Assembly: GCF_032027425.1 (NCBI RefSeq)
Contig: NZ_JAVSJA010000001.1
Location: forward strand, 1,488,001 to 1,552,000
Direction: 5' to 3'
Source: Microcystis wesenbergii NRERC-220
GTDB taxonomy: Bacteria; Cyanobacteriota; Cyanobacteriia; Cyanobacteriales; Microcystaceae
Length of the DNA: 64,000 nt
This document shows positions 2-20,402 of this stretch, piece after piece; position 1 is the stretch's first letter, and each line of letters begins with the position of its first letter. The notes under the pieces are model-generated. The model did no database searches. It saw only the letters and a program-made list of their open reading frames with translations, and was not told the origin of the DNA. The position numbers and the translations under genes were made by a program.

Positions 2-304
2 AATCTGTTTAATCCGGCAAATATTGTTCCTGTAGGAGGTGTAGGTGCTTTTAGTGCAGGGGGATTAGCCTACATCGAAGATGGAAAAGAATATCGGCTA
101 CTTTATGATGGGGGTAAATATATGGGGTGTATACCAGGGTGTACTCCTGTTCAAAACCTGGATGTAAAATTAGTTCCTGAACCCTCCTCAACCGCTGGAC
201 TTTTAGCTATTGGCTCCTTTGGTGCATTAGGCGCAGCTTCAACCCTCAAACGCAAACTAAAATCATCCAAAACATCAGAAAAAGAAACCATAAAAGTAGG
301 CTAA
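2..304 (+). CDS. C-terminal end of a PEP-CTERM exported protein (5' end outside window)
   Basis: The frame is open from the first bases of the window to the TAA at 302-304, so this is the last 100 codons of a longer gene. It ends with a PEP-CTERM sorting signal: VPEPSS, then a hydrophobic stretch (GLLAIGSFGALGAA), then a basic tail (KRKLK). In this family the tail is recognised by an exosortase and the protein goes to the cell surface or extracellular matrix. No catalytic domain is visible in the part present. A near copy of its last codons and terminator lies at 1071-1187, beyond the TA pair. Confidence 0.8.
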   Translation, partial: NLFNPANIVPVGGVGAFSAGGLAYIEDGKEYRLLYDGGKYMGCIPGCTPVQNLDVKLVPEPSSTAGLLAIGSFGALGAASTLKRKLKSSKTSEKETIKVG

Positions 305-328
305 ATTGCTTACCAAAGTAGAATTAAT

Positions 329-359
329 GCCCCTTCATTCAGTCAGTTGAGGGGGTTTA
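329..359 (+). terminator. Terminator-like hairpin after the PEP-CTERM gene
   Basis: An imperfect inverted repeat (CCCCTTCA and TTGAGGGGG) is followed by TTTATTGT. The same hairpin recurs at 1152-1187. A TATAAT at 363-368 lies just after it and could be the -10 box of the TA pair that follows. Confidence 0.45.
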
Positions 360-400
360 TTGTATAATGGGGACATGATTAAATCAAGAGGATTTTGGTT

Positions 401-655
401 ATGCAACAGGTGACGATTGAGCTACCCACCACCATAATTAATGCTCTAGCCGCCTACAATCAAGAGCATAAGGTATCTTCTTCTGATACAGTACAAACGG
501 CTATAGAATCATTTTTAATAGCGAAAGGCTATTTATCCAAACCGAAAAAATCTTTTCACTTATCTCCCGCACCCAAAGGAAGTGGCTATACTGACACATC
601 CATCAATCATGACGCTGTTTTAGCCGAATTTACTCTGTCCCATAAATTACCTTAA
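401..655 (+). CDS. Antitoxin of a PIN-toxin TA pair
   Basis: A small protein of 84 residues directly upstream of a PIN-domain toxin and in the same direction. I chose ATG 401 over the TTG at 395 because AAGAGGA at 386-392 is well placed as a ribosome binding site. The N-terminal half (QVTIELPTTIINALAAYNQ) looks like a ribbon-helix-helix DNA-binding segment. The C-terminal half is polar and proline/serine-rich, as expected for a toxin-neutralising tail. Its role as antitoxin rests mainly on position. The pair is flanked by direct copies of a PEP-CTERM gene tail. Confidence 0.65.
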   Translation: MQQVTIELPTTIINALAAYNQEHKVSSSDTVQTAIESFLIAKGYLSKPKKSFHLSPAPKGSGYTDTSINHDAVLAEFTLSHKLP

Positions 656-664
656 GCTCAAATC

Positions 665-1063
665 TTGAAAGCGATTATTGCCGACACAACCCCCCTTTAC
701 GGAGCGATAGATACCAGCGATCAATATCATAGCAGAGCGCAAACAGAGCTAAGACGCATAGAATCGGAAGATTTAACAGTTATTATCTCTTTCCCCGTAT
801 ATATAGAAACTTACAGCTTGCTTCTATATAGATTAGGATTTGAACAAGCCACTCATTTCACACAAAATTGCTTAGAATCTGCTAATCTGATCAATCCGAC
901 AGAAGATCAGTATTTCGCAGCCATAGCAAAAGCTAAACAATTTCCTGATCAAACTATTACTATTGTTGATGCTTTGACTGCTATCATCTCAATCGAATTA
1001 GATCTACCTGTTTGGAGCTATGATTATCATTTTGATATAATGCGGGTGAAAGTATGGAGATAA
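665..1063 (+). CDS. PIN-domain toxin (VapC-like ribonuclease)
   Basis: A 132-residue PIN-domain protein. The acidic residues expected in the metal site are visible: D7 (ADTTPLYGAID), E48 (VYIETY), D102 (TIVDAL) and D120 (WSYD). PIN toxins cleave RNA, often tRNA, when their antitoxin is lost. The start is a TTG at 665, nine bases after the antitoxin stop, with only a weak upstream binding site; tight spacing of this kind is normal in TA operons. The length is usual for the family and no lesion is visible, so it is probably functional. Confidence 0.75.
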   Translation: MKAIIADTTPLYGAIDTSDQYHSRAQTELRRIESEDLTVIISFPVYIETYSLLLYRLGFEQATHFTQNCLESANLINPTEDQYFAAIAKAKQFPDQTITIVDALTAIISIELDLPVWSYDYHFDIMRVKVWR

Positions 1064-1070
1064 CCCTAAA

Positions 1071-1187
1071 GTGCCAACTAAAACCCTCCAAACCCTCAGA
1101 AAAGGAAACCACAAAAGTCTCCTAAAAAACATTAATAAAAAACTCGCAATCGCCCCTTTATTCAGTCAGTTGATGGGGTTTATTTTT
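1071..1187 (+). repeat. PEP-CTERM tail and terminator scar (copy of 240-360)
   Basis: The bases encode a degraded copy of the last residues of the gene ending at 304 (LKPSKPSEKETTKVS then a stop). The same hairpin follows, with CAGTCAGTTGA in its loop and descending arm. There is no gene body in front of it. It lies in direct orientation to the copy at 240-360, and the PIN TA pair sits between the two. Confidence 0.75.
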
Positions 1188-1436
1188 CCCCTTTATTAAC
1201 TTGATTAATAACAAATCCAACTTTAAAAACCCGCTCCCTTCTCCCCATTTTCCCGCTTTCCTATACCTTTTAAACAGGATTTATTAGGGTCAACAAGAGT
1301 CTTAGGGAGACAAATTAATCGATACTTTTGCCTCTTGCCTCTTGCCCCCCCGACCCCCCCGATGTCGGGGGGGGCGGGGGGGTGGGGTGGTCTTTCCTCT
1401 TGCCTTTTTCAATCTGTCCCTAAAAAGGTCTTAATT
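1188..1436. other. Intergenic stretch with heptamer repeats and a GC palindrome
   Basis: No gene seen. It holds tandem TGCCTCT/TGCCTTT-type heptamers (1324-1345, 1396-1407) and a C/G-rich palindromic run centred on GATGTCGGGGG (1346-1383). A similar palindrome lies at 30955-30990. Confidence 0.6.
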
Positions 1437-2336
1437 TTAGGGAAATACAGTTAAAGGAATCCATTCGTAGGTGTTGACAATGCCTTGAAAATAATCATTA
1501 ATAGTTTCTCTGGAATAGGGAACAACACCATCTTCACCAAACCAACGTTCATAAATTGTCACCGCTTGTTGTTGGTCACTAACGATCCCTTCCATGAATT
1601 TTAATAGGGTATAATTCACTGTATCGCGCCATTTAGAATCATTTTCGGGTAAAGTACAGGCATAGGATTCGTAGGCGTAGGGATAGGAGGGAACTATGGC
1701 TAAATTATTAGGATTTTTAGCGCTTTTCCTTAAGCCTTCTAGGGTAATGCCATCACTGGCAAAACCATCAATTTCTCCCGCTTCTAGTTTTTGTAAACCC
1801 TCGCCACGATTTTTAACTTTGACCAAAATAGCGGCGGGTTGTTGGGTTTTAATCACCGCTTCATTAGTAGTATTGGCAATCACTCCAATGCGTCTGCCTG
1901 CCAAGCTACCGATGTCATCGAGATTACTACCTTTGCGGGTGAGCAATTGAGTACCACTGGCAAAATAACTAACGGAAAAATCCACTTCATTTTCTCTTTT
2001 CCAAGTAAAAGTAGTGGAGCCACATTCGATATCTATAACCCCTGTTTTTAACTTTTCAAAACGATTTTGGGGAGTAATCTCAACAATTTTTAACTTAATT
2101 GGTTTTCCTAACTTCCGTTCGGTTTCTTTGCGAATTAACTCTAACATATCAAGGCTGTAACCCACCCACTTGCCCTGGGAGTTGACAAAACCAAAGGGAA
2201 TAGCATCTTTACGAGCGCCGGCAGTAATTACCCCAGTTTTTTGAATGCGATCGAAGATTGCTCCCGCAAGGCTAGAATGGTTACTGGTGAGGGTTAAAGC
2301 TACTGTCATCGTCATGACGGCAAGTGTACGCTTCAT
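1437..2336 (-). CDS. Periplasmic amino-acid-binding protein of an ABC transporter (family 3)
   Basis: The product is 299 residues with an N-terminal signal peptide (MKRTLAVMTMTVALTLTSNHSSLAG). The body is a bilobed family 3 solute-binding fold. Recognisable parts are GVITAGARKDAIPFGF near the start, WVGYSLDMLELI, and DIECGSTTFTWKRENEVDFS, which resembles the glutamate/aspartate (GltI-like) group. It would capture an amino acid in the periplasm for an inner-membrane importer. No permease or ATPase gene is next to it, so its partners must be elsewhere. The ATG at 2336 is preceded by GATTAGGAAA. Substrate is inferred from family resemblance only. Confidence 0.8.
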   Translation of the reverse strand: MKRTLAVMTMTVALTLTSNHSSLAGAIFDRIQKTGVITAGARKDAIPFGFVNSQGKWVGYSLDMLELIRKETERKLGKPIKLKIVEITPQNRFEKLKTGVIDIECGSTTFTWKRENEVDFSVSYFASGTQLLTRKGSNLDDIGSLAGRRIGVIANTTNEAVIKTQQPAAILVKVKNRGEGLQKLEAGEIDGFASDGITLEGLRKSAKNPNNLAIVPSYPYAYESYACTLPENDSKWRDTVNYTLLKFMEGIVSDQQQAVTIYERWFGEDGVVPYSRETINDYFQGIVNTYEWIPLTVFP

Positions 2337-2377
2337 TTTTTTTCCTAATCTGAAAGTGGCTCAAGTCTGGGACTGTT

Positions 2378-2584
2378 TCAGGAGACTGAGAGTTTCCCAG
2401 AGGAAGATTTTTCAGAGGAGATTGCTGGGGACAAAAAAAGAGGAGAGATGTTACTCTCTCCCCCTTTTAGTTTTTTCGACAACATTTTAAATTGTTTTTT
2501 CAGTTGTCGCTGTCGGGCCGAACCGCCCTTGCCTTTGTCGTTACGTCCCTGACGGCGGGGGGACTCCCATCGCTTAAGTCGCAT
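2378..2584 (-). CDS. Possible small basic protein, uncertain
   Basis: A minus-strand frame starting at ATG 2584 begins with a strongly basic stretch (MRLKRWESPRRQGRNDKGK, then ARQRQLKKQFKML). This composition looks selected, as in small RNA-binding proteins. After the GGE motif the frame runs straight through a good terminator at 2433-2461, and the residues after that do not look conserved. Either the true gene once stopped near the terminator and has been extended by mutation, or this is a chance frame. No family recognised. Confidence 0.3.
   Translation of the reverse strand: MRLKRWESPRRQGRNDKGKGGSARQRQLKKQFKMLSKKLKGGESNISPLFLSPAISSEKSSSGKLSVS
2433..2461 (-). terminator. Rho-independent terminator on the minus strand
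   Basis: Read on the minus strand: GGAGAGA, loop GTAACA, TCTCTCC, then a T-rich run. It lies inside the frame 2378-2584, about 40 codons after its start. Confidence 0.55.
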
Positions 2585-2680
2585 AGTTTTTAATTCCAAT
2601 TTAGTCAGTTATATTTACTGTAACAGGTTTAACGTCAGTTTGGGTTAAGGAATTGAAACTGTGACAACTCAGGCTCTCTG

Positions 2681-2760
2681 TCATACTAAATCCGGTTATT
2701 AAAAACTGATTATTTATTCCCCCTTTTGCCTTTTGCCTTTTGCCTCTTGCCTTTTGCCTG
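2681..2760 (-). repeat. Dispersed repeat with GGCAAAA/GGCAAGA heptamers
   Basis: On the minus strand this is a run of GGCAAAAGGCAAGA-type heptamers followed by AATCAGTTTTTAATAACC and GGATTTAGTAT. The same order of blocks occurs on the plus strand at 63783-63848. The GGATTTAGTAT block alone recurs at 3940-3950 and 42912-42922. Confidence 0.6.
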
Positions 2761-2776
2761 TCCTTATAAGTAGCCT

Positions 2777-3921
2777 CTAAGTACAGGACAAAAAGCTTGA
2801 AAAGTAGGCGGGAGTGGGGTTTTATGAGAAATAGCACTAATCTCGAAACCCCTATGAACCAGTATAATGCGTTGAAACAAGCTCTCAAACCTCATTTGCG
2901 ATGGCACGGAGCAAGACTCTCTTTCCTCGCTCTATTCTTACTGGCTCTGTTGAAAGTAAAAACCGTCAACCTCAAGGAATTAGCCCTAGGTTTTGAAGGT
3001 CGGGTATTGGTAGAGTCCCATTACAAACGATTACAACGCTTTTTTGGGGACTTCGAGATAGATTACCCTGAAATAGCTCGCATTGTAGTCCAGTGGCTCA
3101 ATATCCCTCAACCCTGGGTATTGAGTATTGACCGCACCAATTGGTCATTTGGTAGTCATCACTACAACATCCTCACAGTCGGCATTGTCCATGAAGGGGT
3201 AGCTATTCCCATTCTCTGGTGGATGCTCAAGAAGAAAAAAGGCAACTCAAACAGCGATGAACGGATGCGTTTTATTGAGGAGATGCTGAAGATTTTTCCT
3301 TCTGCGGAGATTCGTTGCTTGTGTGGAGACCGTGAGTTTATTGGGCTGGCGTGGCTGAGGTATCTTTTGCTTGAACCGATGCTGGCTTTCTGTTTAAGAA
3401 TTCGGGCGACAGACAAGATTGAGTACAATGGCAAGCGGTTGGCCGCCAAGGTTATTTTTGCCCATCTTGCCATTGGTGAATCTCAACGTCTGCAGGGGAG
3501 TTGTCTAATTTGGGGTTATCCCGTTTCTGTAGAGGCTCTTCGCTTACCCGATAATTCTTTGCTCATCGTCATTGGACAGCCCGATTGTCTGGGTCTGATT
3601 CAGGATTATGCCCAACGTTGGGGTATTGAAACTCTTTTTGGCATCTTTAAGACCCGTGGGTTTTGTCTAGAATCTACTCACTTTACTGACCCAAAACGTC
3701 TGCGTAAGCTTTTAGCCTTACTGACTTTAGCTTTGGTCTGGTCTCTCAAGACAGGATTGGAGATACATCATCTTAATCCAATTCCTATCAAGAAACATGG
3801 TCGCCGAGCAAAAAGCCTCTTTCGGCTAGGTTTAGACCACCTTCGTCATCTTATTCTCAATCCTTCATTACCTAACTTTTCTCTTTTTCTCCAGTCCTTA
3901 CATTTTTTGTCCTGTACTTAG
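2777..3921 (+). mobile_element. Complete IS4-type insertion sequence, 1145 bp
   Basis: The ends are perfect 18-bp inverted repeats: CTAAGTACAGGACAAAAA at 2777-2794 and its complement at 3904-3921. The element is flanked by a 9-bp direct target duplication, AAGTAGCCT, at 2768-2776 and 3922-3930. It holds one transposase gene whose TAG stop is the last three bases of the element. Perfect ends, perfect duplication and an open transposase indicate a recent insertion. Confidence 0.95.
2854..3921 (+). CDS. IS4-family DDE transposase
   Basis: About 355 residues from ATG 2854 (MNQYNALKQ); ATG 2824 is an alternative start. The likely catalytic triad is D93 in IDRTNW, D159 in CGDREF and E259 in GIETLFGIFKTRGF; the last carries the Y-(2)-R-(3)-E-(6)-K type context of IS4 transposases in modified form. 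The C-terminal part is basic (KKHGRRAKS). The protein cuts and joins the element ends during transposition. No frameshift or internal stop is visible, so it is probably active. Confidence 0.9.
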   Translation: MNQYNALKQALKPHLRWHGARLSFLALFLLALLKVKTVNLKELALGFEGRVLVESHYKRLQRFFGDFEIDYPEIARIVVQWLNIPQPWVLSIDRTNWSFGSHHYNILTVGIVHEGVAIPILWWMLKKKKGNSNSDERMRFIEEMLKIFPSAEIRCLCGDREFIGLAWLRYLLLEPMLAFCLRIRATDKIEYNGKRLAAKVIFAHLAIGESQRLQGSCLIWGYPVSVEALRLPDNSLLIVIGQPDCLGLIQDYAQRWGIETLFGIFKTRGFCLESTHFTDPKRLRKLLALLTLALVWSLKTGLEIHHLNPIPIKKHGRRAKSLFRLGLDHLRHLILNPSLPNFSLFLQSLHFLSCT

Positions 3922-4010
3922 AAGTAGCCTATGCTCAACGGATTTAGTATCACCCTGTGAGATGCTGAACTCTAGTTAACCAACCTTGTCCACCTAATTA
4001 GTATTTTCCC

Positions 4011-4637
4011 ATGCTTAGTCAGCAACTTTGGCACAGCCATCAAGATCTAGTGCAAGCTTGTCTAGAACACCCTTTTGTGCGAGGTATCGCCACAGGAGAG
4101 CTTAAACGGGACTGTTTCGCTTTTTATGTCGGTCAAGATGCTTTTTTTCTGGAATCTTTCGCCCGTGCTTACAGTATCGCCGCCGCTAAAGCTCCCGATT
4201 GGCAGGGATTCACTAGCTTTCATCGGTTAGCGGCAGGGGTATTAAAGGAATTAGAATTACATGAAAATTATGCTTTACAGTGGGGAGTTGACCTGAGAAA
4301 GGTTCAGCCCGCTAATGCCACCCGTCGCTATACGGATTTTCTTCTCGCTACCGCTTGGATGGGTGACATCGGTGCGATTGCTGTGGCGATGAGTCCCTGT
4401 ATGAGTCTTTATGCTTATCTAGGTCAACAATTAGCCTTAGAACCAATTTCTGAGAATCCCTATCAAGCTTGGATTGATAGTTATAGTGGGGATGAATTCG
4501 CCGCTTTAGCAAGCCAGTTAGAGGAATTAGCCGATAAATACGCCCTGATGACGAAAAATATCTCTTTATCCTATCGTTATGCCCTTAGTTGTGAACAGGA
4601 CTTCTTTAGTGCCGCCTACAGCCGGGGCAAATCTTAA
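4011..4637 (+). CDS. tenA: TenA/thiaminase II family protein
   Basis: The product is 208 residues with the all-helical TenA fold signature. It begins with LWHSHQDLVQACLEHPFVRGIATGEL, then FAFYVGQDAFFLESFARAYS, and has a cysteine in MSPCMSLYAYLG that matches the nucleophile of the TenA_C subgroup. TenA enzymes hydrolyse aminopyrimidines during thiamin salvage. The final conserved helix (YRYALSCEQDFFSAAY) is present, so the gene is complete. The neighbours are not thiamin genes. The IS4-type element ends 90 bp upstream and may have replaced its natural promoter region. Confidence 0.85.
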   Translation: MLSQQLWHSHQDLVQACLEHPFVRGIATGELKRDCFAFYVGQDAFFLESFARAYSIAAAKAPDWQGFTSFHRLAAGVLKELELHENYALQWGVDLRKVQPANATRRYTDFLLATAWMGDIGAIAVAMSPCMSLYAYLGQQLALEPISENPYQAWIDSYSGDEFAALASQLEELADKYALMTKNISLSYRYALSCEQDFFSAAYSRGKS

Positions 4638-4712
4638 AATTTTCCCGTCACAATGTTAAGAAATATAAATAACGCTAAGATTAAGGTAAGCAAAATCGTC
4701 ATTATAAGAATA

Positions 4713-5060
4713 ATGTTTCCTTCGCAACCCACCGAAAACGAACTCCTGAAAACTATCTTGGAACCTCTACTAGAGGATTTCACCCATTGGTTTTCCCGTT
4801 CCCGTCTCCTCCTCGAATCCGAGAGATTATCCTTTCTCAGCGTCGAGGAACAAAACGATTTATTAGCAAGAGTCAAAAACGCCCAACAGGAGGTAGCCAC
4901 GGCTCATTTACTCTTTAAAACCACAGGTGGTCAGGTGGGTATCGAGGCCAAGATGTTGTTGCCTTGGCATCAGCTGGTGGCAGAGTGTTGGGGGGTCAGC
5001 AGTCGTCGTCGTCGATTACAGGGTTGGGGAGAACATCAATCTCCTCAAACTGATGCTTAA
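4713..5060 (+). CDS. DUF2605-type small cyanobacterial protein
   Basis: About 115 residues from ATG 4713 (MFPSQPTENELLKTILEPLL). It resembles the cyanobacteria-specific DUF2605 family: a helical N-terminal half (LLEDFTHWFSRSRLLLESERLSFLSVEEQ) and a C-terminal part with FKTTGGQVGIEAKMLLPWHQLV. It is soluble and of unknown function. The next gene is a DUF2973-type protein, and I recall these two families occurring together in cyanobacteria. The in-frame upstream extension to 4653 has no good binding site, so I prefer 4713. Confidence 0.7.
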   Translation: MFPSQPTENELLKTILEPLLEDFTHWFSRSRLLLESERLSFLSVEEQNDLLARVKNAQQEVATAHLLFKTTGGQVGIEAKMLLPWHQLVAECWGVSSRRRRLQGWGEHQSPQTDA

Positions 5061-5159
5061 CCTGAAACTTTTTTGGTAAGCTAGAGAGTTGAGCGAATTT
5101 TTAGCATAAAGTTTTGGCAATTAGGAATATTCACACATAATTCATGGGAGACTCGGCCA

Positions 5160-5465
5160 ATGTTACATCTGCTCTATATCCTCGCCTTCACAGTTATCGC
5201 TTTTTTGACCATTAATAATTTAATTCGGAGTCTGATTACCGTCAGCATGGATTCCCAGAAACGTCCTGCTAAATCGGCTAATTCCTATAATCCCTACGGT
5301 TATCCCATGACTTCCCATCCGGAACTTTTGGACGAGGCCGGACAACTGATTAATGAACCTCTGTTAGTGATTCGTTCTCTCACTGTCGAAGATGCTCGTC
5401 AGCAGTTAGATGCCATTTATAATTCTTCTCCCAGTGCTACCAAAGAGCAAGATGAAGAAATCTAA
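5160..5465 (+). CDS. DUF2973-type small membrane protein
   Basis: The product is 101 residues with one N-terminal membrane segment (LLYILAFTVIAFLTINNLI). A soluble tail follows with SYNPYGYPMTSHPELLDEAGQLINEPLLVIRSLTVEDARQQLDAIY split over its length. This pattern fits the cyanobacterial DUF2973 family; function unknown. It lies downstream of the DUF2605-type gene and may be co-transcribed. Its TAA stop forms the start of the 6-bp duplication created by the MITE at 5469, so the insertion remade the stop codon. Confidence 0.7.
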   Translation: MLHLLYILAFTVIAFLTINNLIRSLITVSMDSQKRPAKSANSYNPYGYPMTSHPELLDEAGQLINEPLLVIRSLTVEDARQQLDAIYNSSPSATKEQDEEI

Positions 5466-5468
5466 TTG

Positions 5469-5696: not shown

Positions 5697-6344
5697 ATGG
5701 CAGTCCTTGAAAACAGATATATTTATCTACACGGTTTTGCTTCTGGCACCCAATCAACAAAAGCACAATTTTTGAGGCATTGTTGGCAAAAGAGGGGTTT
5801 AGCAATGGAAATACCCGATCTTAACGGTGATGACTTTTCTAGCTTAACTCTCACTCGTCAGATTGTTCAAGTCGGCCAATTGATTGAACAATCTCAGCTT
5901 CCCGTTACCCTAATTGGTTCCAGTTTTGGCGGTTTAACGGCAGCTTGGCTGGCCGAAACTTATTTTCAGGTGCAAAGGCTCGTTTTATTAGCTCCGGCTT
6001 TTAATTTCGGGCCGATTTGGTTAGGACAATTGGGAGCAGAAACCCTAGCCAATTGGCAAAAATCTGGGAGTTTATCGGTTTATCACTACGGTTATCGTCG
6101 TTATCTGCCAATTGATTACAAGTTGATCGAGGACTTAGCCAATTATCCCCAAGAAAAGTTAATCAGGCAGCTCCCCACCCTAATTATTCATGGTCGTGCC
6201 GATGAGGTGATTCCCCTAGAAAATAGTCGCCATTATTGCATGAATCGCCCTTGGGTGAAATTAATCGAATTAGATAGCGATCATGCCCTTACCGATGTGA
6301 TGACGAGAATCTGGGCTGAAATACAATTATTTCTCAATTTTTGA
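5697..6344 (+). CDS. YqiA/YcfP-type alpha/beta hydrolase
   Basis: The product is 215 residues in the small esterase group of YqiA/YcfP. It starts with YIYLHGFASGTQSTKAQFL (oxyanion HGF-type motif). The nucleophile elbow is GSSFGG at about residues 78-83, the acid is in IIHGRADEVIP, and the histidine is in LDSDHALTD. It is probably a cytoplasmic carboxylesterase acting on short acyl or thioester substrates. MITE A ends only 14 bp before the ATG, so its promoter or binding site may now be partly MITE-derived. Confidence 0.8.
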   Translation: MAVLENRYIYLHGFASGTQSTKAQFLRHCWQKRGLAMEIPDLNGDDFSSLTLTRQIVQVGQLIEQSQLPVTLIGSSFGGLTAAWLAETYFQVQRLVLLAPAFNFGPIWLGQLGAETLANWQKSGSLSVYHYGYRRYLPIDYKLIEDLANYPQEKLIRQLPTLIIHGRADEVIPLENSRHYCMNRPWVKLIELDSDHALTDVMTRIWAEIQLFLNF

Positions 6345-7155: not shown

Positions 7156-7170
7156 AATTACCTCAAGCAA

Positions 7171-7756
7171 AAAGTTAGTAAATTACCTAGAGACGTTCTA
7201 GATTATAACTTAGTTCCTAATTTTGTCTATATTGCGAAATATTTGTTTAATAATTTCTCGATCGAGCGGTTGGGGATTTAGTATCAGTTATCAGATTGCA
7301 GTTTTAAGTAGACAGTGTTAGGTGAAAACTTCGGGGTCTTCTGGACATCAGGTGAAAAATGTTCACCGTGTTACATAATGGTTATTAATGCTAGGGACAT
7401 AAGGCTTATAGCGGTAAGCGCTTGAGTGAGATACAGACCAAGCTTTGCCTAGCATGGTTTATAGCTTGTGACACTGTACCTAATACGACTGCACACCGCT
7501 ATAAGCTAGTGAGGTACACATATTTTTCTTCCCTTTTGACTTTTGCCTCTTGCCTTTTGCCTAAAACCCATAACTTTTGTACCTCAGCAGACTGAAAAAC
7601 GCTATATGCCCTTTTTTCGATAAGATAAGCTGATCACCTTAACTCCAATAGAACCAAACTTGGGAACTTTCTTTTCACTGATTACTGTTTACTGTTCACT
7701 GCTCACTGAAAAATTCCCCATTACCCTATTCCCTGAAAACCGGATGAAGCTAGGCT
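7171..7756. other. Gene-free stretch with degenerate repeats
   Basis: No gene seen. It holds a TGCCTCT/TGCCTTT heptamer run (7543-7562), a TTACTGTTTACTGTTCACTG low-complexity run near 7680-7710, and a weak inverted pair GTGAGGTACA / TGTACCTCA (7508-7585). The left part probably carries the promoter of the minus-strand gene starting at 7155. Confidence 0.5.
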
Positions 7757-9310
7757 TTAAGATCGATCGATATTGGTGAATAATTCAGGATCGAGGGTGG
7801 GTAGTTCGATATCTTTTTCTGCTGGGGGAGAGGCTAACTGGAAGCGATTTAAAGTTTGTTGAATGCGATCAAAAATGGTGATTTTTTGCTCGCTATTGTT
7901 TTGGGGTTCGGGAATAGGTTCCATTTCTACCGGAGGCTGAACCCGAGGGGCCGGTTCGTTAATCTCTTTTGTCTCTGGTATGGTGGTTAGGGGAGATTCG
8001 ATCGCTTCGGGGGTTTCCTCGACCTTTTCGATTGTTTCTGTCTCTACTGGTTTTTCTTCCACTATTGGGCTTTCTGGCTGAATAACAGGGCTTTCTGGCT
8101 GAATAACAGGGGTTTCCTCAACTATTGGGGTTTCTTCTTCCTCAATAACAGGGGTTTCCTCAACTATTGGGGTTTCTTCTTCCTCAATAACAGGGGTTTC
8201 CTCAACTATTGGGGTTTCTTCTTCCTCAATAACAGGGGTTTCCTCAACTATTGGGGTTTCTTCTTCCTCAATAACAGGGGTTTCCTCAACTATAGGGTTT
8301 TTTTCCTCCTCAACTATAGGGGTTTCTGGCTCAATAACGGGTGTTTCTTCCTCTAGACTAGGAATAGTTTTATAGTTGGGATCAACAATGCTACGGGCAA
8401 TTGTAGGGGATAAATCGCCACGGACTAATTGACTAAGACCGTCTTGGTAAGAGGGATCAAAGCTAATCACGCGCACGCTGGTATTAAACTCGTTTTCGAT
8501 TTTATTTCCCTTACCATCGATGAATTCTAGTTGTACCCAGTTATTGCCTTTGGCAAAACCCTTGAGATAGATTGGTTCCCAAGTATCAAGCAGAAAACTC
8601 TCACCGTTGACAGTGACACGAATGCGCCAATCTTGAAGATTATTATCCCCGTTGGCAGTATTGGACAGACGTAGAGGAGCATTACTCAGATAAAAATCGA
8701 GCAGGATCGGTTCTGCACCGTAGATTCCCTGCGGACTACTGTAGGTTAATAGGGGTAAGTTGTGATCAGGGGCATTTTTGCCTGTTTTTGTCAGAATATG
8801 AAAGGTTGTTTCAGCGAAGGCACCATCATTTTTAAAACTTTCCTGCCAAGGCCGCAGGGCCAAGACGCGGAGGGTGTGAGTACCGGGAGCAAGATTTTCT
8901 AGGATAATCGGTTGCTTGAGGTCGTAAATAGCTGCTGCTGGTTCATTATCGACAATTAGGCTCAAGTGGGGTCCTAATTTCAGGGTATCGTCTTGGAAAA
9001 TTGGCAGCTCTGACACTTGTAGTTTAACTGTCACCTGAGGGTCATCGAAAACTTGTTCGGCCAGAGGACTGAGAATCGTTACTTGGGGAGCGTAACGATC
9101 TAAACTGGGGCGCAGTTCCTGAATTAGGGCCGGGGGGGCAACCTCAGAAATGCGTCCTTGGAGGATGGGAAGATGAGGGGTTTCGGAAGTGGGGAGATTG
9201 GTAGCCGTCAGGCGATCGCCACAGGCGGTTAACAGGGTGGTCAGTAAACCGATCACAAGACATATATGAAGGGTTTTGACTGGGATTAATTTATGTAGTA
9301 GGGATAGCAC
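7757..9310 (-). CDS. Lipoprotein with acidic tandem repeats
   Basis: I place the start at GTG 9310 because AGGAGG lies three bases before it; a longer frame begins at 9349. The N-terminus is a lipoprotein signal (GLLTTLLTACGD), so the protein is likely membrane-anchored in the periplasm. Two beta-sandwich-like regions follow (YAPQVTILSPLAEQVFDDP; LLTYSSPQGIYGAEPILLDF). Then comes a proline/glutamate linker with about four perfect 14-residue repeats (unit ETPVIEEEETPIVE), and a short C-terminal piece (IFDRIQQTLNRFQLA). Function unknown. It is divergent from psaA and shares the intergenic region with it. Confidence 0.75.
   Translation of the reverse strand: MLSLLHKLIPVKTLHICLVIGLLTTLLTACGDRLTATNLPTSETPHLPILQGRISEVAPPALIQELRPSLDRYAPQVTILSPLAEQVFDDPQVTVKLQVSELPIFQDDTLKLGPHLSLIVDNEPAAAIYDLKQPIILENLAPGTHTLRVLALRPWQESFKNDGAFAETTFHILTKTGKNAPDHNLPLLTYSSPQGIYGAEPILLDFYLSNAPLRLSNTANGDNNLQDWRIRVTVNGESFLLDTWEPIYLKGFAKGNNWVQLEFIDGKGNKIENEFNTSVRVISFDPSYQDGLSQLVRGDLSPTIARSIVDPNYKTIPSLEEETPVIEPETPIVEEEKNPIVEETPVIEEEETPIVEETPVIEEEETPIVEETPVIEEEETPIVEETPVIEEEETPIVEETPVIQPESPVIQPESPIVEEKPVETETIEKVEETPEAIESPLTTIPETKEINEPAPRVQPPVEMEPIPEPQNNSEQKITIFDRIQQTLNRFQLASPPAEKDIELPTLDPELFTNIDRS
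8110..8277 (-). repeat. 42-bp tandem repeats inside the lipoprotein gene
   Basis: About four near-identical 42-bp units encode ETPVIEEEETPIVE. Partial units continue on both sides (NPIVEETPVIEEEE; PVIQPESPVIQPES). Such repeats commonly change in number by slippage or recombination. Confidence 0.85.
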
Positions 9311-9349
9311 GTTCCTCCTAGAGCCAAGGCCAAAATCTATACAAACCAT

Positions 9350-15040: not shown

Positions 15041-15274
15041 CTATAGCAATTCAGTATCTTGACGAAACGTAAAAATAATACGACAATCGTAAGCAACAGA
15101 AAAAGACCAATATCCTTCTAAACTTCCTGTTAACTTATGAGACTTTAAAGAAGGAAGAAAGGGATCAGCTTCTAATCAATCTAAGATACTCAATAACTTT
15201 TATTTAAGTTGAGGATTTTTCTTGATAAATTCTTTAAATGCTCTTTTAAAACTCTTGTCAGCAACTAATTTCAT
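15041..15274 (-). pseudogene. Broken RelE/ParE-type toxin gene
   Basis: Read on the minus strand from ATG 15274, the frame encodes MKLVADKSFKRAFKEFIKKN, then reaches a TAA after PQLK. In the same frame the sequence goes on with KVIEYLRLIRS, a TGA, then SLLPSLKSHKLTGSLEGYW and SVAYDCRIIFTFRQDTELL before TAG 15041. This is a RelE-superfamily toxin (SVAYDCRIIF is characteristic) with two nonsense codons and without its usual IDIGTHDEVY-like end. No antitoxin is visible next to it. Confidence 0.75.
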
Positions 15275-15332
15275 TTGATCTAAAATTAAGGGGAAATGAG
15301 TTATATTAATTTGCCAGTTGAGAATATGAGAA

Positions 15333-15973
15333 TTAAATTACACTCCACGGTACACTCTGCATCCGAGTAGATTCTACTACCTTTGGATGAGGAGCGATCG
15401 GCTTAATTAATCTTCTCAGTTTTTGCTGCACATCTACAGGGTTAATGGCGCGGGGAAAAAGTCGGGAATGTGTTTCCGGTTGTTCAAGATGAAGGACAAC
15501 CTGTAATTGTTTTCCCTGAAGAACTTTTCTGGCAAAATTTGCTTCGGATTTGTCAGAGGCATTAATCTTCGCTGGTAACATAAGTAGCTGGTTATAATTA
15601 AATTAAAAATGGATTTTAGGTTCGATCCCCCCTGTCCTCCTTGATAAGGTAGGGTTGATTCATGAATCAACCCTACCCTTGATAAGGGGGGTGTCTGATA
15701 ATTTTTAACGCCTACCTACTTAGCCGCGATTGTATAGAGAACTTTTTCGGTAACTTCTTCGGCGAGATCTTGAGCTTTAGTACGACGTGACTGGCGATAA
15801 TCTTTCACCTCAATTAACCAGATATCTTGTCGAGCAATCGCAATCAAATCAACCCCTTTAATTCCATCTAGCATTGTAGAGAACTGGTGACGATAAAAAG
15901 ACCAATTATCGTATTTACTGACTTGCCACGAATCGGGAAAATCAAAGATTATGCCGTCCACTTCAACCCTCAC
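15333..15973 (-). pseudogene. PD-(D/E)XK nuclease-like gene split by a MITE
   Basis: The N-terminal part (15722-15973) encodes about 84 residues and carries a likely nuclease core, D42 (GVDLIAI) and E55-V-K57 (IWLIEVKDYR). A 138-bp MITE (15583-15720) follows. The rest of the gene continues at 15579-15333 (LPAKINASDKSEANFARKV, then LQVVLHLEQPETHSRLFPRA). If the MITE and one TA copy are removed, the codons read GCG GCT ATG TTA CCA and join the halves in frame, giving about 167 residues. The start overlaps the stop of the ATPase gene by four bases, so the two form an operon. The nuclease role is inferred from the D-ExK motif. Confidence 0.75.
15583..15720. mobile_element. MITE family B, copy 1 (138 bp), inside the nuclease gene
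   Basis: Its ends are AGTAGCTGGTTATAATT and, reversed, AGTAGGTAGGCGTTAAAAATT, with TA direct repeats at 15581-15582 and 15721-15722. The centre holds a 30-bp perfect palindrome (15648-15677, GGTAGGGTTGATT, CATG, complement), also found at 37311-37340. A TA duplication is typical of IS630/Tc1-mariner-type elements, so such a transposase probably mobilises it. Confidence 0.85.
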
Positions 15974-17028
15974 CGTCTTTCTTCTCCCATACTTAAAAAG
16001 CGATCGGATTGAGCAAGCTCTTGATCAAGGGCTGTGATTTCACCGATTTCATCGCTTGTATTTCCTTGTTGAACGACTACAGCACCATCGGAGAAATGTA
16101 GGCCGAAAAAACGCTGATTCAGGGGAAAGTTATCTCGATCGCTCATTAAAATTTCCAGTTCTCGTAGTAAAAATAAACTATGGGTTGCCAGAAAGACTTG
16201 AATACCCGCATGACTAAGATTGACGATGCTCTTAGCGACTTCTCTGATCAAAATAGGGTTGAGATTCGCTTCTGGTTCATCCCAAAATAAAACACCTTTT
16301 TCCATTAACACACCAGTGGCGATTAGACGAGCTAACATCGCTAATTTACGATTTCCTTCGGCAACGAGAGGCATCTCGAATCGTCCACTTTCATTTTTTA
16401 GATAAAAACGCCCATTTTTATCTAACTCTAGCGAACCTCCCATCGCCGATTCGATCGGTTCCAATAACTTTTGAATGGGTTTTTCCTTATTGCCACGTTG
16501 CAAAGGAGCGCCGAGAAGTAAGCAAGTATCTCGCCAAGTTTCGTCAAATTCAAGATAATGACTTTCGTATAGAGATACAAAGTTTGGAAAAATTGTCAAT
16601 AGCTCTCTAGTAGGAAAATAGGCAGAAGATACATCAAGCCAAGCCTCTGGAACTTCCTCTAGGGAGACTTCTGTTTTACTATTAGTTGCGAAACTGAAAG
16701 CAAAATTAAATCGACTATCTTGAAAGTGTAATTTTATATCACATCGTTCTCGCCCTTGTTTTCTGCGGGTGAGCCTTCCTAAATAATCGGGGCGAAATAC
16801 ATGAATCAGTTTATCGGCTAAACGAGTTTGCAATAACGTTTTTGTTGGCGTTCCGTTCGGAGATTTTCGCCCTTCTTCCCCACTGGTAGCGAGTGCCGAA
16901 TAGAGAATCTTGAGAAGATGAGTTTTGCCTGTTCCGTTTTCCCCGACAATGACATTCAGATTTTGGGAAAATTGCAGCTGTATTTCGGGAAAAACCGTCA
17001 AATTTTTAACTGTTAAGTTATTCAGCAT
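15970..17028 (-). CDS. AAA/SMC-like ATPase of a putative ATPase-nuclease module
   Basis: The product is 352 residues. Walker A is GENGTGKT at residues 29-36. An ABC-type Walker B follows at about 250 ([14 protein letters not shown]), and a switch histidine is in [14 protein letters not shown]. This layout matches the AAA_15/AAA_21 (OLD/RecF-like) ATPases that partner nucleases in phage-defence systems. The next gene overlaps by ATGA and encodes a PD-(D/E)XK-like protein, now split by a MITE. The two probably worked together on foreign nucleic acid, but no test of this is possible here. The ATPase frame is intact. Confidence 0.8.
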
Positions 17029-17376
17029 TTCTGCGTGCCTAGAAAAGAGTCGCTCACTATACTTCTAAAATGCCCCCTTTCAAGATGATAGCTTTTAGGG
17101 GGCAAAGTGCGCTAGTATAACTCCCTTAGAACTTAGACAAAAAACGGGGTTTTCAAGATATGAAAACCCTAGCGCAAGTGCATCAGCTATTTTCAATTAG
17201 CTAAATTGTCTCAGTCTCCCTAAGATTTATAGTGGGGACTTTTAAAATGCGGAGGCAAGTTTAGGACACAGCCATCCCCAAGTCCCTTTTAGGGTTTGCT
17301 GTTCTATTTTAAGACCTCATCTTAAATATCAACCATTATAGTGCAAAGCCTAAACCTAACAAATAATCCCCCTCAA
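17029..17376. other. Gene-free stretch upstream of the ATPase gene
   Basis: No gene recognised. It should hold the ATPase promoter near 17030-17080. A short imperfect inverted pair (TGCCCCCTTTCAAGATGATAG / TTTTAGGGGGCA, 17070-17105) could form a hairpin. Confidence 0.4.
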
Positions 17377-17493
17377 CTTATTCAATTAAGGGGGAATGAG
17401 TTATATAAAAAGGCAATTTAACCAACGTTAGTGGGTTCTTTTTCGAGGGAATGAGTGCGTTTTAAGGTGGCATCTACGGCAAGCACTTAATTA
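17377..17493 (-). repeat. PEP-CTERM tail and terminator scar
   Basis: Read on the minus strand it encodes VLAVDATLKRTHSLEKEPTNVG and a stop, matching the end of the PEP-CTERM gene at 17937-18812 (IKRKVKRSNSLEKEPNNIG). The same CCCCCTTAATTGAATAAG hairpin and T run follow. No gene body precedes it. It is in direct orientation to the copies at 17877-18010 and 20297-20402. Confidence 0.85.
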
Positions 17494-17503
17494 AGGATAA
17501 AAA

Positions 17504-17767
17504 CTAGGATTTAGCTTTTAAAGGAAATCTCTCAGGATTTTTAATAATTTCTTTGCTTAAATCTACATCTAAATCTGGCCAATAAAAATGATTAGAAAAA
17601 GGCTCTTGTATATTTAAAATTTGTCTAATAGGTACATCTTGAAACCAAGGAAAATCTTGATAGGAAAGGAACATTTCTTCATTGTTTGCCAGAATCCATA
17701 TTCCATGGGAAGAAATATGAGTTACTTCAGCTTGAGAAGTGTTTTGCCCAAGCATTTTTACGTTCAT
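17504..17767 (-). CDS. DUF2442 family protein
   Basis: The product is 87 residues from ATG 17767, with GAGGAAC placed before it. The pattern MLGQNTSQAEVTHISSHGIW, then FLSYQDFPWFQDVPIRQI and YWPDLDVDLS is typical of DUF2442, a small protein usually paired with DUF4160 in a TA-like module. The partner gene upstream is reduced to its last ~35 codons, which overlap this start. A 5' fragment of a second DUF2442 gene lies at 21264-21308. Confidence 0.8.
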   Translation of the reverse strand: MNVKMLGQNTSQAEVTHISSHGIWILANNEEMFLSYQDFPWFQDVPIRQILNIQEPFSNHFYWPDLDVDLSKEIIKNPERFPLKAKS

Positions 17768-17845
17768 TTTGTCGTTCCTCAATAATAGTTTCTATCGCTT
17801 GAAGATGATTTATGCTTACCCTTCGTTTATTATAGCAAATATTCA
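17727..17845 (-). pseudogene. 3' remnant of a DUF4160 gene
   Basis: On the minus strand the frame that overlaps the DUF2442 start reads NKRRVSINHLQAIETIIEER and then QNERKNAWAKHFSS before the stop at 17727-17729. This matches the C-terminal end of DUF4160 proteins, which normally sit directly upstream of DUF2442. The frame is closed by a stop just upstream and no N-terminal part exists, so only the tail remains. Confidence 0.6.
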
Positions 17846-17876
17846 GTTAAAAATACAAGAGGGAGAAGTAAGAGCA

Positions 17877-17912
17877 TAAAAATCCCCCTCAACTGGTCTA
17901 AAATTAAGGGAG
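17877..17912 (-). terminator. Terminator of the PEP-CTERM gene
   Basis: Minus strand: CTCCCTTAATTTTAGACCAG TTGAGGGGG, then ATTTTTATG. Close copies follow the scars at 17377 and 20297. Confidence 0.6.
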
Positions 17913-17936
17913 AATGAGTTATATAAAAAAGGCAAT

Positions 17937-18812
17937 TTAACCGATGTTATTGGGTTCTTTTTCGAGGGAATTAGAGCGTTTTACTTTCCGTTTTATGGTT
18001 GCACCTGCACCAAGTATTCCCAGGGAAAGGAGACTTATGATTGATGTGGGTTCAGGCACAACACACAGTTCTGCTTCCCATGTTGCTTGAAACACACCTG
18101 TATTTACGTCATAAGTTGCTACAGGAGAAAAACGACCAACTTGGGAGTTGAGTAGCGGTGTTGATAATCCACTATAAATAGTATTTATTTTGAGAGGCAA
18201 AATATTACCATTACTTGTTTCCATAATTGCTGAACCTTCTTCAATAACTTGATTACCAAAAGGTGTCCACTTAACCTGATAATCGACAACCCGACTGATA
18301 TCTAAGGGACCGTTATATGTTCCTATAAAGTTAGCAGAATATTGCAAAAGTTGATTATTGATATTAGAAACTTGTCCAGTTACACTGATTGTACTATTTG
18401 GAAGAGAAGTCCAATTAAAAGTACGTTCTAAACTGTAGTTTCCTCCACTTAAATCAAATAGATTTTGTCCATTATCAGGTGAACAATTACTTGTACGTGC
18501 CGAAGCCCAGCAAACAACTGTGACTACAGAACTGCCAAATGATAGTGGAGTAAAAGTTGAAGGAATCTGAGTAAAAGTTGCAGTTAGATTTCCGCCAGGA
18601 CCATCGGTATTAATTTCACCTGATGCAGTAGCATTGATTGATGACCCATTAACTGTTCCTGTATATGTACCATTTAATGCCAATTGCAAGGCTTCTGCCT
18701 GACCTGCATTCAATCCTATTAAGCTAGTAGCTATTATCAATCCAAAAATACTGTTATCAAAAATATTTTTGCTGATTTTAACTTTTTGTAAATCCTGAAT
18801 ATTCATAAACAT
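17937..18812 (-). CDS. PEP-CTERM exported protein
   Basis: About 291 residues from ATG 18812, with GAGG nine bases upstream. A signal peptide (SIFGLIIATSLIGLNAGQAEA) is followed by a beta-rich body of about 230 residues (NGTYTGTVNGSSINATASGE). The end is a PEP-CTERM signal: VVPEPTSIISLLSLGILGAG, then a basic tail KRKVKR. The protein is probably secreted and released or anchored by exosortase processing. No enzyme motif is visible. Fragments of paralogous gene tails lie on both sides. Confidence 0.8.
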   Translation of the reverse strand: MFMNIQDLQKVKISKNIFDNSIFGLIIATSLIGLNAGQAEALQLALNGTYTGTVNGSSINATASGEINTDGPGGNLTATFTQIPSTFTPLSFGSSVVTVVCWASARTSNCSPDNGQNLFDLSGGNYSLERTFNWTSLPNSTISVTGQVSNINNQLLQYSANFIGTYNGPLDISRVVDYQVKWTPFGNQVIEEGSAIMETSNGNILPLKINTIYSGLSTPLLNSQVGRFSPVATYDVNTGVFQATWEAELCVVPEPTSIISLLSLGILGAGATIKRKVKRSNSLEKEPNNIG

Positions 18813-18897
18813 AATAGTTAGCCTCTGAATTTGATATCTTTTTCCTTCGGAAATTGTATGCTCGCAAAAATTAACTTTCAAGGCTTTTAAAGTAATA

Positions 18898-19523
18898 TAA
18901 AGCTATATAAGGCAGTATTAAGAAAAATAACTTAAATCTAAAAATAATATTAAATTGACCGTACACCTTATAATGTCATATAATGTCGGGTAAAAGCTTA
19001 TTAATCTTGATTCTGTGTTTAAAAATGAACAATTTTGATATTCACTCTTTAATTACAACTGTTGATAATCTCATCTTCTCCTATACAGGAGAAAATTTAG
19101 ATGATGTTCAGTCTGAAATCTTAGAAGGGGTGATTAATCACCAAAAATACACAGAAATCGCTAAAAGTCATCATCGTTCCGAGAAATATGTCAAGGATGT
19201 AGCTGGTAAATTATGGAAAACCTTATCAGAAATTTTAGGAGAAGAAGTTAATAAAGCTAATCTCAGGTCTAGTCTGCGAAGATATTATTATAATGTCTCT
19301 CATAACTTTAATGTAATAAATCCCGTACAAATTAATAAAGGTCATATCTGTAATCAACTACCAGAAAATCAATTACAAAAACCTAATCTTGCTGAAGAAT
19401 CTAAACTCGAAATCGCTACAGAATTGATGAAAGAAGGCTTAACCGTCGAACAAATTGCTAGAGTGTTAAAACTTCCCTTAGAATTAGTTAAAGAGCAACT
19501 TGAAAAACCTAAGTCACCTAATT
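18898..19523 (+). repeat. Long direct repeat, copy 1 (pairs with 20400-21020)
   Basis: From TAAAGCTATATAA onward the two copies share a promoter, leader and the helix-turn-helix gene with few differences. The MntA/HepT pair and a PEP-CTERM tail scar lie between them. Confidence 0.9.
18955..18984 (+). promoter_or_regulatory. Promoter of the first HTH gene
   Basis: TTGACC (18955-18960), 18 bases, then TATAAT (18979-18984). The second copy has the same boxes at 20457-20462 and 20481-20486. Confidence 0.55.
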
Positions 19524-19525
19524 AA
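19025..19525 (+). CDS. HTH protein, copy 1 (vMAP/EAD-type N-terminal domain)
   Basis: About 166 residues from ATG 19025. The N-terminal domain (LDDVQSEILEGVINHQKYTE, then KYVKDVAGKLWKTLSEILGE and NLRSSLRRYYY) resembles the helix-turn-helix domain found at the N-terminus of cyanobacterial effector-associated and vWA-MoxR-associated proteins. Here it is not fused to an effector. The C-terminus (ATELMKEGLTVEQIARVLKL PLELVKEQLEK, broken here) resembles the tail of Rpn/PD-(D/E)XK-type proteins. It could be a regulator or a truncated adaptor. A near twin lies at 20527-21021. Confidence 0.6.
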   Translation: MNNFDIHSLITTVDNLIFSYTGENLDDVQSEILEGVINHQKYTEIAKSHHRSEKYVKDVAGKLWKTLSEILGEEVNKANLRSSLRRYYYNVSHNFNVINPVQINKGHICNQLPENQLQKPNLAEESKLEIATELMKEGLTVEQIARVLKLPLELVKEQLEKPKSPN

Positions 19526-19578
19526 TGGTGGTATTTGGCACTGGCAGAGCATTTCTAAGTTCAATAATAATTTCTATT

Positions 19579-19622
19579 TTAATAAACTTCATCATGAGAG
19601 CCAATATCAACGAGACAACCAT
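19579..19622 (-). pseudogene. Orphan C-terminal end of a RelE-type toxin
   Basis: On the minus strand the bases read NLNGCLVDIGSHDEVY and TAA (19579-19581). VDIGSHDEVY is the typical last strand and tail of RelE/ParE-superfamily toxins. Nothing else of the gene is present. The broken RelE gene at 15041-15274 lacks exactly this end, but whether the two were once one gene cannot be decided. Confidence 0.6.
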
Positions 19623-19661
19623 TAAGGTTACAATGAAGGAATCAGATTTCAGGAAATAGCC

Positions 19662-19952
19662 ATGAAACGAGATGAGGTACTAACAATTCTCGCAAAACAC
19701 CGAGAACAATTAGAAAAACTAGGGGTAAAATCTCTGTCTCTATTTGGTTCAGTAGCAAGGGATGAAGCACGTTTTGACAGTGATGTAGATTTATTGGTAG
19801 AATTTAGTAAAGCGGTAGGGTTATTTGAGTTTATCGAGGTACGACTTTACTTAGAAGATATATTAGGATGTTCTGTTGATTTAGGTACTCAAGATTCTTT
19901 AAAAGAACATTTACGACAACCTGTATTAAAGGATGTGATTAATGCCTTTTAG
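19662..19952 (+). CDS. mntA: MntA-type nucleotidyltransferase antitoxin
   Basis: The product is 96 residues of the minimal nucleotidyltransferase family. G29-S30 and D41-x-D43 form the GSx10DxD active site (LFGSVARDEARFDSDVDLLV). In the HepT/MntA systems this protein AMPylates the HEPN toxin and neutralises it. It overlaps the following HepT gene by 11 bp, the usual arrangement. The pair is intact and sits between the two copies of an HTH gene. Confidence 0.88.
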   Translation: MKRDEVLTILAKHREQLEKLGVKSLSLFGSVARDEARFDSDVDLLVEFSKAVGLFEFIEVRLYLEDILGCSVDLGTQDSLKEHLRQPVLKDVINAF

Positions 19953-20292
19953 AGATTGGCAACTTCGTCTTCAAGATATTATTGAATCCATTGATGAAAT
20001 CTTGGAATGGACGGCTAATATGACCTTTGAAGATTTTAGCTCAAATCGAGTGACTCTTAAAGCAGTTCTTTATAATTTAGGAATTATTGGTGAGGCATCT
20101 AGAAATATTCCTAGTCAGATACAATTGCGTTATTCTCAAATTCCTTGGCGTTTAATGGGAGATATGCGAAATGTCATTTTTCATGAATATTTTCGGGTAG
20201 AATTGGCAATTGCTTGGCGGACGATTGAAAATAATCTAACTCCATTGCGTTCACAATTACAGGAAATTTTAGAAAATGAAGCCGAAAATTAA
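19942..20292 (+). CDS. hepT: HepT-type HEPN ribonuclease toxin
   Basis: The product is 116 residues of the DUF86/HEPN family. The RNase motif Rx4HxY is intact at R76, H81 and Y83 (RNVIFHEYF). HEPN toxins of this type cleave RNA, and the Tyr is the target of AMPylation by MntA. ATG 19942 lies within the end of the antitoxin gene, so translation is probably coupled. Flanked downstream by a PEP-CTERM tail scar. Confidence 0.88.
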   Translation: MPFRDWQLRLQDIIESIDEILEWTANMTFEDFSSNRVTLKAVLYNLGIIGEASRNIPSQIQLRYSQIPWRLMGDMRNVIFHEYFRVELAIAWRTIENNLTPLRSQLQEILENEAEN

Positions 20293-20296
20293 TCTA

Positions 20297-20402
20297 TAAA
20301 AATCCCCCTCAACTTATTCAATTAAGGGGGAATGAGTTATATAAAAAAGGCAATTTAACCGACGTTATTGGGTTCTTTTTCGGGTGAATGAGAGCGTTTT
20401 AA
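20297..20402 (-). repeat. PEP-CTERM tail and terminator scar
   Basis: On the minus strand it encodes ALKRSHSPEKEPNNVG and a stop, then the CCCCCTTAATTGAATAAG hairpin and a T run. It is the third copy in 3 kb in the same orientation and is joined directly to the second copy of the HTH repeat. Confidence 0.85.

Follow-up and report, generated by a model that had tools for sequence, protein, structure and literature searches.

Results

PEP-CTERM gene tails and the modules between them in the window

We analysed a 64,000-nt stretch of the Microcystis wesenbergii NRERC-220 genome (G000; 4.68 Mb in two contigs), referred to as the window (G000:C1:1488001-1552000), in which the 3' ends of PEP-CTERM genes recur without gene bodies next to small toxin-antitoxin (TA)-type genes. 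Each such repeat, called a tail here, is ~116 nt long and comprises the last ~20 codons, the stop codon, the 3' untranslated region and the terminator of one PEP-CTERM gene subfamily. From a comparison of genome sequences, we consider it likely (with a probability of roughly 0.75) that in Microcystis these 3' ends are dispersed direct repeats serving as shared homology, and that TA-type modules move as units of module plus tail, most likely by RecA-type recombination.

The tails were located with a tail profile, and the genome E-values come from a sequence-only model built from 47 tails. The tails at 242-360 (+ strand; tail profile 1.5e-28, genome E-value 3.3e-26) and 17880-17999 (- strand; 9.2e-25) end full PEP-CTERM genes. 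The former gene is present as its 3' part (2-304, +), an open reading frame (ORF) whose 5' end lies beyond the window, which encodes 219 residues in the genome and has the C-terminus VPEPSS...LKRKLKSSK. The latter (17937-18881, -) encodes 314 residues from the first listed start and matches TIGR02595 with 18.8 bits (cut-off 16). Tails without a gene body, called orphan tails, lie at 1063-1183 (+; 1.8e-22), 17364-17465 (-; 7.1e-24) and 20300-20401 (-; 7.7e-24). Their genome E-values of 5.9e-21, 1.4e-17 and 1.4e-16 exclude chance matches; the first of them belongs to the training set of the model and the other two do not. The orphan tails repeat the full gene ends directly, with 76% identity over 123 nt between the copies at 1062 and 241, and 88-94% identity among the tails at 17-20 kb. 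An earlier note on this DNA had placed body-less tails at 1071-1187, 17377-17493 and 20297-20402, in direct orientation to full gene ends at 238-360 and 17877-18010, and the tails were confirmed close to these coordinates, as was their direct orientation.

The same note had seen a small TA-type cassette between the tails each time, which holds for the PIN, DUF2442, nucleotidyltransferase and HepT families by Pfam and is too simple for the third interval. In the first interval, an 86-residue putative antitoxin (395-655, +; an ORF without a Pfam or NCBIfam match) lies directly 5' of a PIN-domain toxin-type gene (665-1063, +; PF01850, 2.4e-5, over the cut-off), whose stop codon abuts the orphan tail in a junction that is identical in six genomes. 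The second interval contains a DUF2442 gene (17504-17782, -; PF10387, 1.3e-11) and a truncated remnant of its partner gene (17783-17845, -), which has lost an internal part compared with the longer versions at two other loci (L085 and L045) and retains ~30 C-terminal residues; the name DUF4160 for this partner is carried over from the earlier note as a label only. The third interval (17880-20300) holds the PEP-CTERM body at 17937-18881 as well as a helix-turn-helix (HTH)-type gene and a MntA/HepT pair, and is therefore not a simple tail-cassette-tail unit. Here the HTH-type ORF (18983-19525, +) has only weak, under-cut-off Sigma70_r4 matches and contains the repeats D3/D4; it is followed by a predicted MntA-type nucleotidyltransferase antitoxin (19662-19952, +; PF01909, 8.1e-14) and a predicted HepT-like ribonuclease toxin (19942-20292, +; PF01934, 5.1e-25). 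Window 17876-19741 matches positions 7163-9001 of a locus in another Microcystis genome (L039 in G010), including a common tail after MntA/HepT. Because the tail at 20300 abuts a second copy of the HTH-type gene (20485-21021, +; identity to the first, 98% across 300 nt and 91% across 197 nt) and a PEP-CTERM body occupies this place in G010, this tail is best read as the remnant of a deleted body. The HTH gene is tandemly duplicated together with its upstream region (18898-19524 and 20400-21020, in two blocks of 98% and 91%).

The tail marks one PEP-CTERM subfamily

The window genome has 16 PF07589 matches, only one of which sits at a tail match, and the repeat therefore belongs to one subfamily. 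The PF07589 matches at window positions 51346-51408 and 52249-52317 have no tail match, again indicating that the tail marks only a subfamily. The PEP motif, the transmembrane segment and the basic C-terminal cluster expected of PEP-CTERM proteins were found, with a TIGR02595 match for the gene at 17937-18881 and a PF07589 match for the gene of an array at 829-833 kb (locus L031, described below). The other tail genes were called PEP-CTERM by their C-terminal sequence only, the remaining ones in the window genome being below the PF07589 listing.

An array of tails and gene pairs outside the window

Searching the window genome with tail DNA identified its clearest array at G000:C1:829-833 kb. 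In this locus (L031), a full PEP-CTERM gene (4531-5319) is followed by orphan tails at 6272, 7257, 7909 and 8735, all in one direction, and by a 49-nt terminator fragment at 6132. The tails alternate with four gene pairs that point either way: a DUF3368/UPF0175 pair, a pair with a weak PBECR1 nuclease match, a pair without a Pfam family, and a RelE-like gene (under the cut-off) with UPF0175. At L031:7439-7923 (G000:C1:831438-831922), two overlapping small genes encode 80 and 81 residues without a Pfam or NCBIfam match. The second of these proteins has relatives in 40 loci across several phyla, and in 20 of the 31 loci tested outside Microcystis the partner is encoded immediately upstream, making the pair a candidate for an unnamed TA-like module. 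The gene beside the array (L031:8908-10485), which we take to encode a porin, has a tail at its border in eight genomes with four different left pieces.

A repeat of ~177 nt (L031:3513-3689) that the tail model does not match has many copies across the genus, and some of these lie close to tail arrays. Spread of the array by a phage or plasmid was considered and set aside: the L031 array had no phage match, and six plasmid records matched it at 69-79% over at most 9% of its length. A search of viral contigs for a relative of one cassette protein found none. No known RNA element was detected either, as L031:3400-9000 gave no Rfam match at gathering thresholds.

Tails across Microcystis and its family

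The model of 47 tails gave 170 matches in 12 Microcystis genomes, with 5-27 in each (G000, 16; G001, 23; G002, 9; G003, 7; G004, 14; G005, 8; G006, 5; G007, 9; G008, 27; G009, 8; G010, 22; G011, 22). Under stricter filters, ten of 38 other genomes of the family had one to four matches and 28 had none. When a tail was counted as full if an ORF of at least 60 residues with a PEP-type motif ended at it, 78 of the 170 were full and 92 were orphan. The 170 tails form 113 groups, 32 of which have at least two tails less than 5 kb apart, and all 57 adjacent pairs within this distance have the same orientation. Recurrent pieces are nearly constant in length from tail to tail (for example, 759-763, 907-919, 1100-1102 and 927-940 bp), with exceptions at 702, 731, 771, 1030 and 1091 bp and in pieces enlarged by insertions.

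TA-type genes are concentrated at tails

We found 50 inter-tail pieces with an orphan tail at their end, containing 127 ORFs in total. By our assignment of gene clusters from profile matches, 36 of the 50 pieces contain a TA-type cluster, the other 14 contain one of two unnamed gene pairs, and four contain a transposase cluster. Among the best 25 of 34 Pfam families in the 127 ORFs, where one protein can score in two families, we found UPF0175 (14), PIN (9), RelE (7), PIN_3 (6), DUF3368 (6), PemK (5), two each of HepT-like, BrnT, BrnA, NTP_transf_2, Unstab_antitox, DUF2442, ParE and PBECR1, and one YoeB, along with some transposase families. As a control, we took 127 ORFs out of 20 seeded random regions of 9 kb; these yielded no TA family among the best 25 of 133 families, which include every family with at least two members. 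A second random control of 100 ORFs of 60-185 residues had PIN (2) and PemK (1) among the best 25 of 76 families. Although the 1-kb neighbourhoods of tails make up 0.52% of the sequence, 25 of 113 UPF0175 matches start there (0.58 expected), as do six of 115 PemK/MazF matches (0.59 expected). Two adjacent small genes of toxin and antitoxin families, the arrangement of type II TA systems, were found for PIN, HepT/nucleotidyltransferase, PemK, BrnT/BrnA and DUF3368/UPF0175; the PBECR1-like gene and the RelE-like gene paired with UPF0175 score under the curated cut-offs, and one pair has no match. PADLOC mostly returned candidate-system names (PDC-S70 and others).

Neighbours are exchanged at tails

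To compare the surroundings of tails, we gave labels to the pieces lying to the left (L) and right (R) of each tail. Among recurrent pieces, 12 of 14 orphan left pieces have at least two right partners and 24 of 26 right pieces have at least two left partners; the commonest left cassette, with 13 copies, is followed by nine right labels. The start of the window PIN cassette (R9) is found in six genomes, behind PEP-CTERM genes whose bodies belong to five clusters; its end (L5) precedes three right labels. The border gene of the L031 array, labelled R4, is the piece described above with its four left pieces.

Occupied and empty sites were aligned in two genome pairs. In the first, 2.5 kb between two tails in the window genome is represented by one tail in G006, with flanks of 92.8% and 95.1% identity; L031 3750-5377 and 7909-10500 match L065 8929-7293 and 7409-4819, and the subject ranges overlap in that one tail. 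In the second, a MazF-type cassette between two tails in G004 is absent from G003, which has one tail, with flanks of 95.9% and 96.2%; L091 5067-5428 and 6226-8446 match L086 4873-4513 and 4619-2397, again overlapping in one tail. A third comparison involves G011, assigned to the same species as the window genome by the tool used. Where the window has two tails, the DUF2442 cassette and one PEP-CTERM body, G011 has a different PEP-CTERM gene with one tail, between flanks at 15902-17464 (97.3%) and 18867-21150 (96.4%).

A truncated tail with common left and right flanks occurs in six genomes (G002:C1:1685991, G004:C23:21745, G006:C242:19731, G007:C69:10334, G009:C238:19074 and G011:C88:41014) and is probably a deleted PEP-CTERM gene with a retained terminator; at six other tails, this right flank comes after a full PEP-CTERM gene. 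Elsewhere in the window, a 42-nt tandem repeat lies at 8051-8386 inside the ORF at 7757-9349.

Crossovers fall inside the tails

Each cassette type has a constant left junction, while the tail sequence and the right neighbour vary. For example, the last two codons and the stop codon of the 81-residue cassette gene are apparently supplied by the tail, and its relatives outside Microcystis end differently. In 101 main-type tails, r2 falls from 0.078 (sites ≤12 nt apart) to 0.015 (>50 nt), and incompatibility is 0.41 for near sites vs 0.61 for far sites; none of 1000 site permutations reached the r2 decay, and none of 1000 reached the low near-site incompatibility. When main-type tails have only their right neighbour in common, they differ at the left edge as much as unrelated tails do (ratio, 1.02) and resemble each other more over the right half (0.49-0.73; bootstrap interval not including zero). 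When they have only the left neighbour in common, the two ends conform to expectation, with 0.52 at the left edge and 1.04 at the right edge. In the L1-R5 junction a two-state marker at the stop codon goes with the right neighbour, and in L5-R3 and L5-R14 it goes with the left one. Homologous recombination fits this pattern, and a single fixed crossover site does not fit it well.

Discussion

The tails and modules of Microcystis may be regarded as integron-like cassette arrays driven by homologous recombination. Once joined to a tail, a small TA-type module would move as a unit of module plus tail. Recombination between two tails would remove the intervening stretch and leave one tail, as seen by genome comparison; in the reverse direction, a circle or incoming DNA could cross over at a tail, so that the unit is inserted and the host gene end regenerated. 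Unequal exchange could then build arrays with tails in one orientation and modules in either. The most likely driver would be RecA-type homologous recombination without a dedicated recombinase, because crossover points vary and attC cores are missing, and the selfish retention of TA modules (addiction) may help to keep the arrays.

The proposal of the earlier note, that PEP-CTERM ends act as sites through which cassettes enter and leave by recombination, thus stood in the main, with cassette presence and absence leaving one tail, swapped neighbours, uniformly direct tail pairs, recombination inside tails and the concentration of TA genes all in its favour. The body-less tails that it proposed to look for make up 92 of the 170 tails in the 12 genomes, most of which are drafts; strains without a cassette and with one tail were found in the two aligned pairs, and G011 has one tail instead of two; and TA genes of the UPF0175 and PemK/MazF families are over-represented within 1 kb of tails. 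Its description of PEP-CTERM ends as a conserved multicopy repeat is valid for one subfamily and had to be given up for PEP-CTERM ends in general.

Several observations weigh against this reading or limit it. Because eight of the genomes are drafts in 140-340 contigs, the orphan count is approximate, as some 'orphans' may be contig cuts. Orphan tails also arise when a body is lost and no cassette is involved, since six of the tails preceding flank R1 end a full PEP-CTERM gene and six others are truncated orphans, and some orphan tails, namely the one at 20297 with its deleted body and the L6/R1 group, are not cassette borders. The PEP-CTERM bodies differ between the window and G011, so that more than the cassette changed there, and this pair is not among the rows of our empty-site screen. 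That screen, which looked for the same left and right pieces with one to four cassettes vs none, returned 36 rows (21 distinct intervals, with one row within a single genome). When the right neighbours were permuted, however, the screen still gave a mean of 15 and a maximum of 30 rows, and none of 200 runs reached 36. The excess is therefore real, but with so high a permuted level the individual rows are weak, and the 36 rows are not 36 independent events. The permutation control thus lowers the weight of the screen, the aligned genome pairs are stronger evidence than the screen, and the direct orientation of all 57 adjacent tail pairs raises the case. Most UPF0175 and PemK genes (88 of 113 and 109 of 115) lie more than 1 kb from any tail, and tails are therefore only one route. 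Moreover, the cassettes and genomes are related, and therefore the enrichment probabilities are too small and overstate independence. The linkage figures cover tail stretches only, and the slope between thirds for tails sharing the left neighbour was not significant (its bootstrap interval spans 0). Finally, the identity between tails, often 75-95%, is low for efficient homologous recombination.

We weighed three other explanations, the first two of which we regard as improbable. A site-specific recombinase, either an integron integrase or another tyrosine- or serine-type enzyme, might recognise the tail, perhaps through the terminator hairpin, and move the cassettes. Consistent with this, two of four folded tails form strong hairpins (z -4.0 and -3.4), and an integron integrase scored over the cut-off in four of the 12 genomes, in one of them interrupted by a stop; seven more gave partial matches and one gave none. 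However, the hairpin of the first orphan tail of the window (1120-1195) was no better than those of shuffled sequences (z -0.2), and the crossover point is not fixed. Some of the partial integrase matches cover only the C-terminal part that tyrosine recombinases generally share, including the one on contig 2 of the window genome, and the model also matches every one of the 14 control genomes, under the cut-off. The window genome itself fits the integron model only at residues 10-105 (G000:C1:344378-344665, L183) and 245-314 (contig 2). In a search limited to integron-type recombinases, none of the four over-cut-off TIGR02249 matches was on a tail-bearing draft contig or, in G001, within 100 kb of a tail. 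Pairs of attC cores (RYYYAAC...GTTRRRY) were present in only four of the 170 tails when 40 nt of flanking sequence was included at either end (mean of shuffled sequences, 1.88; maximum, 6). The five integrase loci (L179-L183) contain a single attC-like site, in one locus, and have only a transposase copy and short repeats in common with the array loci L031, L052, L053, L054 and L056. An attC-based integron was therefore rejected, as the tails have no attC cores, the integrase is not at the tails and the modules lie in both orientations.

No more probable in our judgement is that the tails are the remains of PEP-CTERM genes, often in tandem arrays, whose bodies were deleted, and that TA modules gather there independently, a scenario which the earlier note had set against its own idea. 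Tandem PEP-CTERM genes exist (G000:C1:1312833 and 1313650), and the tail at 20297 with its duplicated HTH gene as well as flank R1 fit such deletions. The scenario accounts less well for the rest: the occupied and empty alignments break at tail edges, the cassette-tail junctions stay identical between genomes while the right neighbours differ, and orphan tails are rich in TA genes. Least probable of all, and in our view very unlikely, is that transposition by insertion sequences or miniature inverted-repeat transposable elements shuffles the islands with the tails as passengers. The transposase clusters in four of 50 inter-tail pieces and the other repeat near the arrays (L031:3513-3689) could be taken in this sense, but the remaining 46 pieces have no cluster assigned to transposases, and the junctions coincide with tails.

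Homologous recombination at tails remains our preferred explanation, and a broader version of it can be put forward tentatively, as one that we would not yet favour over its negation. The 3' end and terminator of the PEP-CTERM subfamily might constitute an integrase-free counterpart of the integron, a genus-wide and concertedly evolving exchange site at which a common TA pool circulates as units of module plus tail, among its members at least one unnamed two-gene family present in several phyla, and where insertions restore the surface-protein gene and bodies can be swapped. If so, ordinary gene ends could do the work of integron sites, and a major bloom-forming genus would have a definite path for replacing its TA modules and surface-protein genes. 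The tails would also be a natural trap for new TA families by position, the pair at L031:7439-7923 being an example.

Comparison with known systems

No title or abstract in the open-access literature that we searched describes PEP-CTERM ends as exchange sites. In the parts of the published work that bear on the subject, 62 PEP-CTERM clusters are given for strain FD4 (PMC7498433), and another article concerns expression in colonies (PMC12642866). From the same genus, the passages on M. aeruginosa PCC 7806 describe a MaOC1-linked TA pair between two 152-bp direct repeats (PMC7935541). That case resembles ours in having a TA pair flanked by direct repeats, but the repeat is another one, and those passages describe no array or exchange. 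The border repeat of MaOC1 was rejected as the same element: the 16-nt inverted repeat published for it does not occur in the window, and five of 178 loci each have a single copy.

The pdif modules of Acinetobacter plasmids, which include TA modules, are likewise bounded by short recombination sites; these are Xer dif-like sites on plasmids. The closer likeness is to the cassettes of sedentary chromosomal integrons, which also form arrays of small mobile modules with a short repeat in one orientation between them and are reordered, gained and lost. In Vibrio, integron cassettes are often TA pairs. Unlike integrons, the tails have no attC cores or adjoining integron integrase, and crossovers do not fall at one point. 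Integron cassettes also usually have one orientation, whereas the Microcystis modules lie in both orientations relative to the tails, and the repeat is the end of a protein gene.

In the arrays of orphan cdiA-CT/cdiI and rhs-CT modules, orphan gene ends trail a full gene, and homology to this main gene would allow the toxin/immunity modules to undergo homologous recombination (PMC4927057). Shared homology at which modules recombine is also what the aligned empty sites and the recombination inside tails point to in Microcystis. The shared piece here, in contrast, is the 3' end with its terminator, no module is fused to the main product, and the anchor is a PEP-CTERM protein.

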